In this document: positions 45,401 to 54,400 of the stretch, one piece after another | Numbering within the stretch: the stretch's first letter is position 1 | Layout of the letters: every line of letters begins with the position of its first letter | Source of the DNA: Bolinopsis microptera | Lineage: Eukaryota > Ctenophora > Tentaculata > Lobata > Bolinopsidae | DNA length: 64,000 nucleotides | Assembly: GCF_026151205.1 (NCBI RefSeq) | Contig: NC_087080.1 | Coordinates: 15,013,337-15,077,336 of the forward strand | Direction of reading: 5' to 3' | The notes under the pieces: generated by a model | Told to the model about the DNA's origin: nothing | The model's input: only the letters and a program-made list of their open reading frames with translations | The model's database searches: none | Position numbers and translations under genes: made by a program

Positions 45401-48400
45401 GCATCTAATAATGGGCGTAATCCATCAGATTCACGCCGCGAGTATGAACCGTCACGATCCAAGCTCAACATCTACAACATAAGAGTAGAAGATACGGGCA
45501 AGTACACATGTGTAGCCACGCTGCACAATGGTATCAGGGTCGAGGGATCTACATTCCTCACTGTGAAACGTGAGTTTAAATGAAGTTGCTAGTTTTACCT
45601 GTCTAAAGTTGTGCCGATATATAAAGTGAGAAGCACTTTATTTTATTTCATCTAATATTTTCTGCTGGCAATATATTTACGTAATATTATATTAATGGTA
45701 TATTTCACAGCGGCAATAACAGTTGTCTGTACTGAAGCCCAGTTTCTGGACGTGGGGAGCGACACAACGATATCATGTAGTATTAGCGGGGACACCGCAC
45801 CCTCCGTCTTCATGTACTGGTTAAAGGGTTCCTCTCCTATTGCTTCCTCTGGCAAGTACAGGTTAGTGTTTGCGTGTTGAGATAAGATAAGTAGATTTGG
45901 GAATTATTGTATTATTATTATTAGTTAACGGAGGCAATGAAATAAACATTTTTTGGAATCTTGAACTATTGTCGAAAAATAACGATACACGAACATATAA
46001 AGACAGAATTTCTACAGTTTTGTCCAGTTATAGTTAAATATAACTATAATTGGACAAAACTGTAGAAATATATATATCATAGTCATATATTAGTGCATAT
46101 CTCCTTGAATCAGATCTGGTGATAAATATTATATTGTAAATTAAACATAGTTTTAGATGTAATAAAATATCGTAAGCAGAGATGTTGAACAAAGAGTAAA
46201 CGATTCAACGGAAAGTGGACTTAAAAGCTAGTCCATTTGATTTCATGGAAGCAGAGTTAGTGAATATCTCCTTGAATCTGATCTTCAGGAAGAAGTTCCA
46301 TGATGTGAGGTGTTGGAGGTCGGATGTACTCTCCGGTCTTAGATTCGTTTGACCTGAACCACCTTCGGATGGGGCTGGGATAGTTCCAGAACTTGTCCAT
46401 GAACTCTGCCAGCTTTGCGTGTTTCTCAAGAGCGTTGGGGCAGAATACGTTGATGTCGTAGAGGCAAGCGTAGAGAAGGTAGTCAGCATGGACGGGTAGA
46501 GAGTTGCCCATGATGAAGGGTCCGGTGAGGATCTCTTCGATGGCCTTAGCTTTGGGTTCAAATTTGGCAAGGAATCTGGATCTGGCGTATTCAACATCGA
46601 AGTCGTTACACTCGGTGCTGTTGGGGGCAAAGCATATCTTGTTGATGAGGTAGACCATGGTGTTCATGATGGAGAAAAGGATCTTCTCGATCTCTTCACA
46701 CTTGTTGAACTGTTCAGGTTCGTCGGGGATGAGGAACCATTCAGCTCCAATAGCTCGGACTACAGCGATGGTTTCAGTCATCTTGTTGTCGAGATCCATC
46801 CAGTTCTTGGAGGAATCGTCCTTGGCTTTGAGCCATTCTGGGCAGTGGTCCATGTAGTTGGCGAGTTTGGTATCACAAGCGATCTTCTGGTGTTCTTCTC
46901 CGATCTGCATACGGGAGGTGAGCATCATCTTGACAACTTTGGACTTGATGGGGACAAGAGGACCGGTGTTCACCTTTTCTGGGTTCGTGAGAGTCATGAT
47001 TTGGACTAAAAGATTTGATTTGTTAGAAAATTTTGGATTAGAAATCGTATCTGAAAATCAATACTAAAAGAAATCATTTAAATTCATCGTCAATTTAATC
47101 ATTATTGAATCATAACTTTAAATCCATTTCGAAGACAGTAACACAAAATGGTTTATCAAAGGTATGATCATAAATATTATTTAGTAAAATTTGAAAGGTG
47201 GACATGGTTAGAGATAATATCATATCGTAAACATAGATCTGTTGAATATTGAAAGCAAACGATTCGGCAGAAATTGGACGTCTCTTTAAAAGTTAGTCTC
47301 TTTGATTTCATGGAAGCAGAGTTAGTGAATATCTCCTTGAATCTGATCTTCAGGAAGGAGTTCCATGATGTGAGGTGTTGGAGGTCGGATGTACTCTCCG
47401 GTCTTAGATTCGTTTGACCTGAACCACCTTCGGATGGGGCTGGGATAGTTCCAGAACTTGTCCATGAACTCTGCCAGCTTTGCGTGTTTCTCAAGAGCGT
47501 TGGGGCAGAATACGTTGATGTCGTAGAGGCAAGCGTAGAGAAGGTAGTCAGCATGGACGGGTAGAGAGTTGCCCATGATGAAGGGTCCGGTGAGGATCTC
47601 TTCGATGGCCTTAGCTTTGGGTTCAAATTTGGCAAGGAATCTGGATCTGGCGTATTCAACATCGAAGTCGTTACACTCGGTGCTGTTGGGGGCAAAGCAT
47701 ATCTTGTTGATGAGGTAGACCATGGTGTTCATGATGGAGAAAAGGATCTTCTCGATCTCTTCACACTTGTTGAACTGTTCAGGTTCGTCGGGGATGAGGA
47801 ACCATTCAGCTCCAATAGCTCGGACTACAGCGATGGTTTCAGTCATCTTGTTGTCGAGATCCATCCAGTTCTTGGAGGAATCGTCCTTGGCTTTGAGCCA
47901 TTCTGGGCAGTGGTCCATGTAGTTGGCGAGTTTGGTATCACAAGCGATCTTCTGGTGTTCTTCTCCGATCTGCATACGGGAGGTGAGCATCATCTTGACA
48001 ACTTTGGACTTGATGGGGACAAGAGGACCGGTGTTCACCTTTTCTGGGTTCGTGAGAGTCATGATTTGGACTTGGATAGCTAAAATATTCGATTTGTTAG
48101 AAAATGTTGGATTAGAAATCGTATTTGAAAATCAGCCGAAAATAAATAAATTTTAATCATTATCAATTTTAATGATTATTGAATCATAACTTATACTCCA
48201 TGTCAAAAACAGTAACACAAAATGGTTTGTTAAAGGTATGGTCATAAATATTATACTGTAAATTTGAAAAGTAAACATAGTTCTAGATGTAATCTAATAT
48301 CGTAATTATAGATGCTGAACGGGGCGGAAAATGGAGTTGAAAGAGTCTCTTTGATTTCATGGAAGCAGAGTTAGTGAATATCTCCTTGAATCTGATCTTC

Positions 48401-51400: not shown

Positions 51401-54400
51401 GAAAGTTGAGCACATTTGAAATGGTAACTCAATAGAATGATCCTCTTTAGTTGATCACTGGCTTTTATAGTAAAATTCTTGAGTAGTTCAATTAATTGTA
51501 ATTGATCAAAGTATTTGATAACATTAGCAATATTTCACTATCGAGATACTTTTAATGAGATTGTTATTATTAACATCGAACTGTCAATTAATTTGCCTCT
51601 AGTCATTCTTAGGGATAGTTCTCAAATATCAGCTTATCACATAATTTGAATAATCCAATATAATATTGTCTCGAGTGGTCTTATGTAATATTTAATGATT
51701 AGGGGAGCAAAAAAGTTAATTTAATCAAAAATTTGTATTACTAATTAATCGAAAAGAAATTAACCTCATTGTAACTGTTATCCGAGTTTTTGATAATCAA
51801 CGAAGCTAAAATTAATTTATCAGTCATTCGGAAATCCAGAAATATCTAGAAATGTCTAGAAACATCTAGAAACATCTAGAAACATCTAGAAATATCTAGA
51901 AACATCTAGAAACATCTAGAAACATCTAGAAATATCTAACCGAAGTACACGTACCCTTGACACTCCATCAAACATAACAATTTTCTTTCCCAGAATATCC
52001 GATGATAAGTCAAGTCTACGTATCAGCAACATTCAGGAGGAAGATGGGGGGATGTACACAGTTGTCATTCAAACCAGCTTAGGTAATAGCAACCCACAAT
52101 TTGTAAATGTTTTACTTTTTCTGTTAACGTATGTTTACACGTGACCTCAGTGAATAATTTCATCTAAAAAAATGATAAAATTGTTAAGATCATTTCGTCA
52201 ATTGAAAAACTAATAATCCGAATCACTAATCCAGGTACCAAACACGAGAGTTCAAGTATAACAGTTATAATGGACCCTGTTATCCTGGAGTCTCCCGCCT
52301 CCCTTACTGTAGCTACTGGGTCTGATGTGTCATTGACCTGTGTATACAGCGGCACTCCCAAACCTTACTTCTTCTGGAACAAGGATGATGAGGTGTGTAT
52401 TTTAATTTTAATCGATTCTTAAAATTGTAATCGATTTTTTAGTGATTAGATTGATTTACTACTTAATCCACCTAGGTGACAACTTCGTTCAATTTTTATA
52501 CATTACCAGAATCCCAAAATATTTCAAAAGTTTTGAAATATGTTGTGCAATTCTTGACTGTCCCTAAATCTGGTACCTTCCCCAGGCTGTGGAGGTAGAA
52601 TCAGACGAGCGTATAACCACAGCTGAAGAGTACGTGGACAAAAACGTGAGAAGAGATATACTTTCTATAAAGCGTGTAAATAAGGTGGACGCTGGAGCGT
52701 ACTATGGGTTTGCTCTGAACATGGGTAACGCTGATGCTACAGGGACTGGAGTACAGTCCGGACAAGCTGATCTCCGAGTTATAGGTAGGAACTCCAATAC
52801 TTGGTTATATCATGAATTAGATATTATATAACTATAATATTTGGTTATTAACAAGAATATTAAATATTATCATGTTCAGATATTTATCAATTTTTGTTCA
52901 ATTTTTCTGGTTTTTTTTTCTGGATTCTTCTTCCATGGTTGTCATTTCTCTTGAACTATAACCATTTTTATTTCGCATTCGACCCGAATGTAAAACCGAT
53001 AAAACCTGAATTGTATGTTTGGTTTCTTGTTCTAGCCTAACTCCATCTCCCTCAGATCCTCCCATAATAAACGTGCCACCTAGAAACATCTCCCTGACCC
53101 AGGGTAAAAGCACCAGTATCAAGTGCGGTTACACCGGGGACCAGCCCCTAACTATAGAGTGGTTATATGAGGGCAGGGCACTTACTAACAGCGCTGATAA
53201 CAGGTACACGGCTAGTTTTAATTATTAAAAGTTGTTTTGAAAAATTGTAATATTTCGTGTTTCAATGGGTGCTCAGTTTAGAGTACCACTGCAATAGTAA
53301 TTTGTGTGATTAAAGTTTAGGAATAGGTTTGAAAACTTCAAAGAATCCGCGTAGGTTGGGTATTTAATTGGTTTAGTTGTAATCATACCGGAATATGATA
53401 TATAATTCCCTTAAGAAGGCTTGAGTCTGAATTGATTCTATTATTAACCAATTTAGTTCCCATTAACAAATTATAGTTATGAGAATGTTCTGACGTGTTT
53501 GATAATATAACAAGGTCTCTTCTATAATTAATACTTTCAGAAAAACTATTATATTATATCGTAGACACATGTCACAAATCCCAAACATTCTTCCTAAACT
53601 CTTATTTCCCAGGATTGAACTGGACAGCGCTGCGGGCACGATTAAGTTCGCCACGATCAGGAGCTCAGATACAGGACAGTATGTGTGTAGAGTCCAGAAC
53701 GAAGTTGGGGTCGTGACTGCCACAGCTAAACTTACTGTTCAGGGTATGGTTATATGTAGCCGCTAGTTAGAAAATTCACTGAGTACCTGCGAGATGATAT
53801 GATATTGGAAATCAATAGGAAAGTTTTTTTATCGAATTTGATAAAGCTGCTTTTACGATTAACCTTTTTTTTAATTTGTTGTTTTTTATTTTTTTGTTTT
53901 TTTTAAATTTGTGTTTTTTAATTAATCCCTCCTAATCATCCGACAATGAATCAGTTAGTAACCTTGGAACCCCGCAGTGCCACCAGAGATAACACAAGGA
54001 CCGGAGGCAGTTAACGTGTCACGTGGTAGCGCTGTGAGACTGACCTGTGTAGCGAGGATTGGTTACCCTGCCCCAACTATGAGTTGGAGGAAAAACGGGA
54101 ACCTTATTGCCAGAGTTCCCATGCAAACGACCAGGTAGTGAACTTATTTCATCCTACACATTATCCTACGTCTTACCCTACATTTAATCCTACATTCCAT
54201 CATACATTATATCCAAGAGTGTCTCCTACATCGTATCCTATCCAAGACAGGTGTCGGATTCAGGAAGCAGCCTGTTGATATCCGAGCAGGTCACCCCACC
54301 CTCACTATCATCTCCTCGCAACTGATACACATCTTATACCACATCATCATAAGTAAGGAACATGTAACTAACCACCACACTTAGAGTTTAACTAATTTAT

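Follow-up and report, generated by a model that had tools for sequence, protein, structure and literature searches.

An antisense array of five GST-like genes in an intron of Bolinopsis microptera, with a putative promoter block upstream of its first copy

The window analysed was the whole stretch of 64,000 nucleotides from the ctenophore Bolinopsis microptera (contig NC_087080.1, positions 15,013,337 to 15,077,336). On its minus strand, the list of open reading frames (ORFs) held five intact, intronless ORFs of 246 codons each, spanning positions 46257-51234. They code for GST-like proteins and are termed W5 to W1 in the array's own direction (Table 1). Their coding sequences (CDS) were 99.1-99.9% identical, with 8 of 741 nucleotides and 3 of 246 residues (10, 13 and 98) variable, which confirmed an earlier sequence-only reading of five intact, intronless and nearly identical genes. 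The array was located within a single intron of a plus-strand gene, which is read from its sequence as an Ig/FN3 receptor gene. The exons on both sides, joined in frame, gave an I-set domain (E 2.4e-12), and the transcript ends were inferred. The antisense nesting and the in-frame joining of the flanking exons claimed earlier were thus recovered; in the earlier reading, the domain so joined would be the fourth Ig domain.

Codon usage was compared with that of the surroundings. The G+C content at third codon positions was 0.64-0.65 in the W ORFs versus 0.515 in the host exons (8 exons, 388 codons, approximate borders), and the total G+C content of the non-coding part of the host intron was 0.286. 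In W5, the bias was strong for Asn (14/14 AAC), Ile (16/20 ATC), Phe and Tyr, and not strong for Glu (GAA in 15 of 22) and Ala (GCT in 9 of 17).

A search of the genome for relatives of the W protein gave at least 24 matches: the five genes of the window, six genes in a second array (array B), five genes plus one first exon in a third (array C), and seven weaker matches. In array C, the coding sequence of each gene is interrupted by an intron after about 31-33 codons; the W and B genes have none, which amounts to intron gain or loss inside one subfamily. The ratio of nonsynonymous to synonymous substitution rates (dN/dS) was computed for 9 of the 55 possible CDS pairs, with inner copies among them. 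Eight pairs gave 0.19-0.27; the pair W3-W4, with very few changes between its members, gave 0.76.

The W product has a calculated mass of 28.5 kDa, a pI of 5.5 and 7 Cys. It matched the Pfam family GST_C_3 with an E-value of 1.1e-5 (26.1 bits, cut-off 21.6). In a phmmer search of the PDB, a Blo t 8 GST isoform was the best match (E 2.8e-6), followed by mu-class chains, so that the GST similarity proposed earlier was borne out. A profile including ordinary GSTs of the same genome matched GST chains down to 4e-37, a value inflated by those rows. An alignment of 19 rows was built from three of five W, six of six B and three of five C genes, the single relative C8 and six ordinary GST rows. The Tyr of the YW motif, which we take to be the catalytic residue of the first strand, had no counterpart in the nine array rows covering the gappy N-terminal region; the earlier reading had also found no clear catalytic tyrosine. 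In C8 a Tyr lies nearby, and the call is uncertain there. The NLP loop, presumably holding the cis-Pro of the glutathione (GSH) site, was removed by a six-column gap in 12/12 array rows and in C8. The array proteins were 20-27% identical to the six ordinary GST rows and 32% to C8. In a tree of the alignment rows, W, B, C and C8 formed one clade (support 100/99) apart from the ordinary GST rows, with a warning for long branches. The W protein is read as a divergent mu-like relative of the GSTs. It resembles mu-class GSTs in its GST_C_3 score and in the mu-labelled chains among its best single-sequence PDB matches, and differs from them in the missing Tyr and NLP counterparts and in its low identity to ordinary GSTs.

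Upstream of W5 only, a conserved block was found that ends in TATAAAAGCCA and is a putative promoter. It was 77% identical, over 183 columns (E 1.4e-34), to a counterpart that precedes the first array B gene, compared with 47-60% for the spacers of the two arrays. Each of these arrays has one copy, solely before its first gene. From 46000 to 52000, the array strand has a single TATAAA, which lies inside the block; the surroundings of array B hold two extra ones, the first upstream of its block and the second past the last gene. A genome search for the block returned W, B and one truncated relic (C4:1893507-1893616). The relic was rejected as a third block site: it is a truncated array B flank without TATA, and GST matches in the 16 kb surrounding it were only at chance level. 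The ORFs close to this relic presumably resemble a retrotransposon reverse transcriptase. The sequence TATAAAAGCCATTAAGA is common to C8 and B6.

All 16 genes of the three arrays have a splice-acceptor-like CTAAY...AG just before the ATG. In 15 of them the AG lies between -15 and -19, and in W1 at -10; in W and B it stands exactly at -18/-19 in 10 of 11 genes, W1 being the exception. The CTAAY motif (CTAAC or CTAAT) begins between -29 and -38 in every array gene. It was present in 5/5 spacer types, judged by representative leaders; the product of the chance rates was 4e-6 for a motif picked after it had been seen. Mean agreement among the five representative leaders was 4.4/5 for positions -1 to -19 and 3.3/5 for -20 to -45. 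Bolinopsis was found to have a spliced leader (SL): a Hormiphora-like leader with the AATTTGAG end and a GTAAG donor was located on C13, at two places with 87-90% identity in one search and at one in another (control 0). In Hormiphora, the leader was on at least 56% of the Iso-Seq reads, according to PMC8527503.

These features would fit a dosage cluster of a ctenophore GST-fold subfamily lacking the enzyme site, read from one promoter and trans-spliced to the SL; from the sequence, we give this reading an even chance. Minus-strand transcription would start near 51440 and read through all five genes, cleavage would occur within each spacer of 308-333 bp, and trans-splicing of the SL to the AG that precedes each ATG would yield five mRNAs for one protein. 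One promoter, a polycistronic transcript and trans-splicing would explain why selection acts on copies without a block. More tentatively, the arrays in general may be homogenised dosage operons, with many copies of one gene per promoter, each freed through SL trans-splicing, and lying antisense in long host genes; this wider claim is rather doubtful. If the single-promoter reading is right, the case would show how an SL lets tandem copies without promoters be of use immediately, with gene dose easy to raise as a result. A literature search at title and abstract level found, among the matches listed, neither a report of a ctenophore operon nor one of a ctenophore GST array. If the wider claim is right, the arrays would be ctenophore operons, and raising the dose of one protein would be an unusual use of an operon.

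The closest known systems include the SL operons of nematodes and tunicates. If the model is right, the array would share with them a single promoter block, consecutive ORFs and an acceptor-like signal ahead of each ORF; it differs in that its genes are near-identical copies nested in an intron. The 5'-exon-sharing clusters of ctenophores are a second such system: PMC8527503 describes, in Hormiphora and Mnemiopsis, clusters of non-overlapping transcripts with a common 5' exon, which its authors regard as possibly an artefact of leader mapping.

Several observations weigh against expression as one operon. The four ordinary GST genes checked, and C8 too, all have an AG no more than 25 nt from the ATG; CTAAY was present at two of these four, though not at C8; in 13 of the 16 array genes, another AG lies closer to the ATG. 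Since the signals also occur at ordinary GST genes, they would suit any trans-spliced gene, and an operon cannot be deduced from them. Array C has no block, and its lone TATAAA (7483408) lies in an inner spacer in a different sequence. Few SL copies were found among the matches listed, compared with 718 in Hormiphora (PMC8527503). The spacers are longer than those of C. elegans and tunicate operons and shorter than those of Trichuris (about 100 bp in C. elegans and 517 bp in Trichuris; PMC7986045). They also have room for promoters of another type. As to the GST fold, structure prediction, which the earlier reading had proposed, gave a poor AlphaFold model for three window proteins (pLDDT 46), and a fold search with it told little, having no matches at E <= 0.001 and an alpha-class GST at E 0.75 as the best.

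The main competing explanation is that of ordinary tandem duplicates, each with its own TATA-less promoter in the spacer and its own transcript, which would carry an SL cap like many ctenophore mRNAs, and with no polycistronic RNA. Animals usually have one promoter per gene, the spacers are long enough for it, and the acceptor-like AG also precedes single GST genes. Separate promoters have a considerable chance, short of even. Against them, the sole block conserved between W and B precedes the first gene in both, and the spacers, where such promoters would have to lie, can be aligned only at 47-60%.

Alternatively, the shared promoter might be followed by one non-coding first exon, which cis-splicing would join to one or other of the five acceptors; the mRNAs would then come from a single promoter and carry no SL. 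The single block and the acceptor-like signal in every 5' leader would suit this arrangement, as would a possible donor GTAAAA between TATA and the first acceptor in W5 and B6, which was noted by eye, is unscored and does not stand at aligning positions. The last genes, however, would be reachable only by skipping the first acceptors, and we consider cis-splicing improbable.

Returning to the dosage cluster, enzyme activity of the W protein is unlikely, because the catalytic Tyr and the cis-Pro loop are missing from its alignment. That the arrays encode active GSTs whose catalytic site is atypical and whose number grew for detoxification is accordingly given very little credence: GST families frequently grow through tandem duplication and a GST_C domain is present, but neither the YW Tyr nor the NLP loop that the genome's ordinary GSTs possess is matched in the array rows. 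Most likely, judging from the sequence, the protein acts in bulk in the cytosol in a structural or ligand-binding role rather than as an enzyme. The codon bias of W5, the total of 16 genes in the arrays and the loss of the active site would all agree with a product required in large amounts. A structural or dosage role is put forward as a hypothesis, and the comparison with lens crystallins is meant as an analogy only. Cephalopod S-crystallins are multicopy GST relatives with weakened activity; they derive from sigma-class GSTs, bind GSH and in many cases have a long alpha4-alpha5 loop (PMC4976375). The likeness lies in the multicopy GST kinship. They would differ in their sigma-class origin and GSH binding, the nearest PDB chains of the array proteins being Blo t 8 and mu-labelled ones and their GSH-site loop being gone. 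If the proposal holds, the arrays would be a second case, beside the S-crystallins, of multicopy GST-fold proteins lacking a full enzyme site.

The four W spacers are of two types in the order A-B-B-A, types A and B being 78-81% identical. The possibility that an assembly artefact inflated one or two genes to five copies, as the 99% identity of the W copies might suggest, is extremely slight, since the spacer order argues against simple assembler stutter, eight CDS positions vary, the W5 leader differs, and a sister array exists with copies 87.6-99.1% identical. The coding parts of W are more alike than the spacer types, a pattern to be expected if gene conversion were centred on the genes. 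Such conversion of the coding part, together with purifying selection, may keep the copies alike. Of the four W-B pairs of CDS computed, three had dS values of 0.35-0.37 and the fourth 0.57, and the spacers of these arrays aligned at the 47-60% given above.

The sister arrays were also searched for host genes. Array C is flanked by opposite-strand myotubularin-domain exons (7476592-7476897 and 7489209-7490041) and is therefore read as lying antisense inside a myotubularin-related gene. Between the two exon groups, myotubularin positions 113-213 were not recovered, so that a single intron is only presumed there. Array B is perhaps nested in a dynein gene, judging from a one-sided dynein heavy chain exon match (DHC_N2, E 1.4e-5, its 24.6 bits falling short of the 31.9 cut-off; best PDB match E 0.11). 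For the host of the W array, the best PDB match of the FN3 exon at 60855-61055 was receptor tyrosine phosphatase delta (E 9.7e-15). The label of a receptor phosphatase was dropped, as a crude motif scan extending 30 kb past the window gave no phosphatase domain. Gene nesting is ordinary in ctenophores: Hormiphora has 2357 nested intronic genes in 1654 hosts (PMC8527503). The intronic position is common to both cases; here the nested unit is an entire homogenised array, and the host gene of array C differs from that of array W.

Table 1. Features of the W array and its surroundings, and related loci elsewhere in the genome. Positions without a prefix refer to the window.
Feature	Position	Strand	Evidence or remark
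W5, GST-like gene, first in the array's own direction	50494-51234	-	ORF; GST_C_3 E 9.9e-6
W4, GST-like gene	49420-50160	-	ORF; CDS identity to other copies 99.1-99.5%
W3, GST-like gene	48371-49111	-	ORF; CDS identity to other copies 99.3-99.9%
W2, GST-like gene	47322-48062	-	ORF; CDS identity to other copies 99.2-99.9%
W1, GST-like gene, last in the array's own direction	46257-46997	-	ORF; GST_C_3 E 1.1e-5
AG, putative 3' splice site before W5	51252-51253	-	CTAAT...TTTGTAG
AG, putative 3' splice site before W4	50178-50179	-	CTAAC...TTTTAG
AG, putative 3' splice site before W3	49129-49130	-	CTAAC...TTTTAG
AG, putative 3' splice site before W2	48080-48081	-	CTAAC...TTTTAG
AG, putative 3' splice site before W1	47006-47007	-	-9/-10 from ATG
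Conserved putative promoter block	51459-51641	-	upstream of W5 only; terminal TATAAAAGCCA at 51459-51469
10-bp tandem repeat ATCTAGAAAC x10.5	51834-51938	.	further upstream of block; not seen upstream of array B; no function claimed
Intron of Ig/FN3 receptor gene housing the array	45862-51993	+	GT at 45862, AG at 51993; flanking exons in frame
Array B, six genes	C4 1.278-1.284 Mb		84-89% identity
Array C, five genes and one first exon	C4 7.48 Mb (C4:7479717-7485544)		63-64% identity
C8, single intronless relative	C8:12452724-12453455		NLP gap; array clade in tree
Spliced-leader RNA gene copies, varying quality	C13:12.83-12.85 Mb		leader end ATTTGAG; donor GTAAG or GTATG

The ATCTAGAAAC repeat resembles a heat-shock element, with similar spacing and one base off the consensus in every second half-site. 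Heat-shock control through this repeat was rejected; it was treated as a minisatellite, and it was not seen upstream of array B. In the genome, the heat-shock-like pattern occurred 7 times forward and 8 times in reverse, with 7 of these occurrences inside the ATCTAGAAAC repeat; the reversed pattern used as control occurred 12 and 2 times. Repeats at C12:619604 and C12:838952 are nearer to a true heat-shock element than the one at 51834-51938.

Close to array B, a galectin-type lectin gene was noted (Gal-bind_lectin in three stretches, L009 404-2506). In two genes of this array (L009 6118-6912 and 7185-7979), an in-frame upstream ATG adds 18 residues and crosses the putative splice acceptor. 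Scans of the window with Rfam (gathering cut-offs) and ARAGORN gave zero matches. Strongly skewed, low-complexity sequence was found in the window at 24001-28000 and 41989-42687, the latter being a long CT microsatellite.

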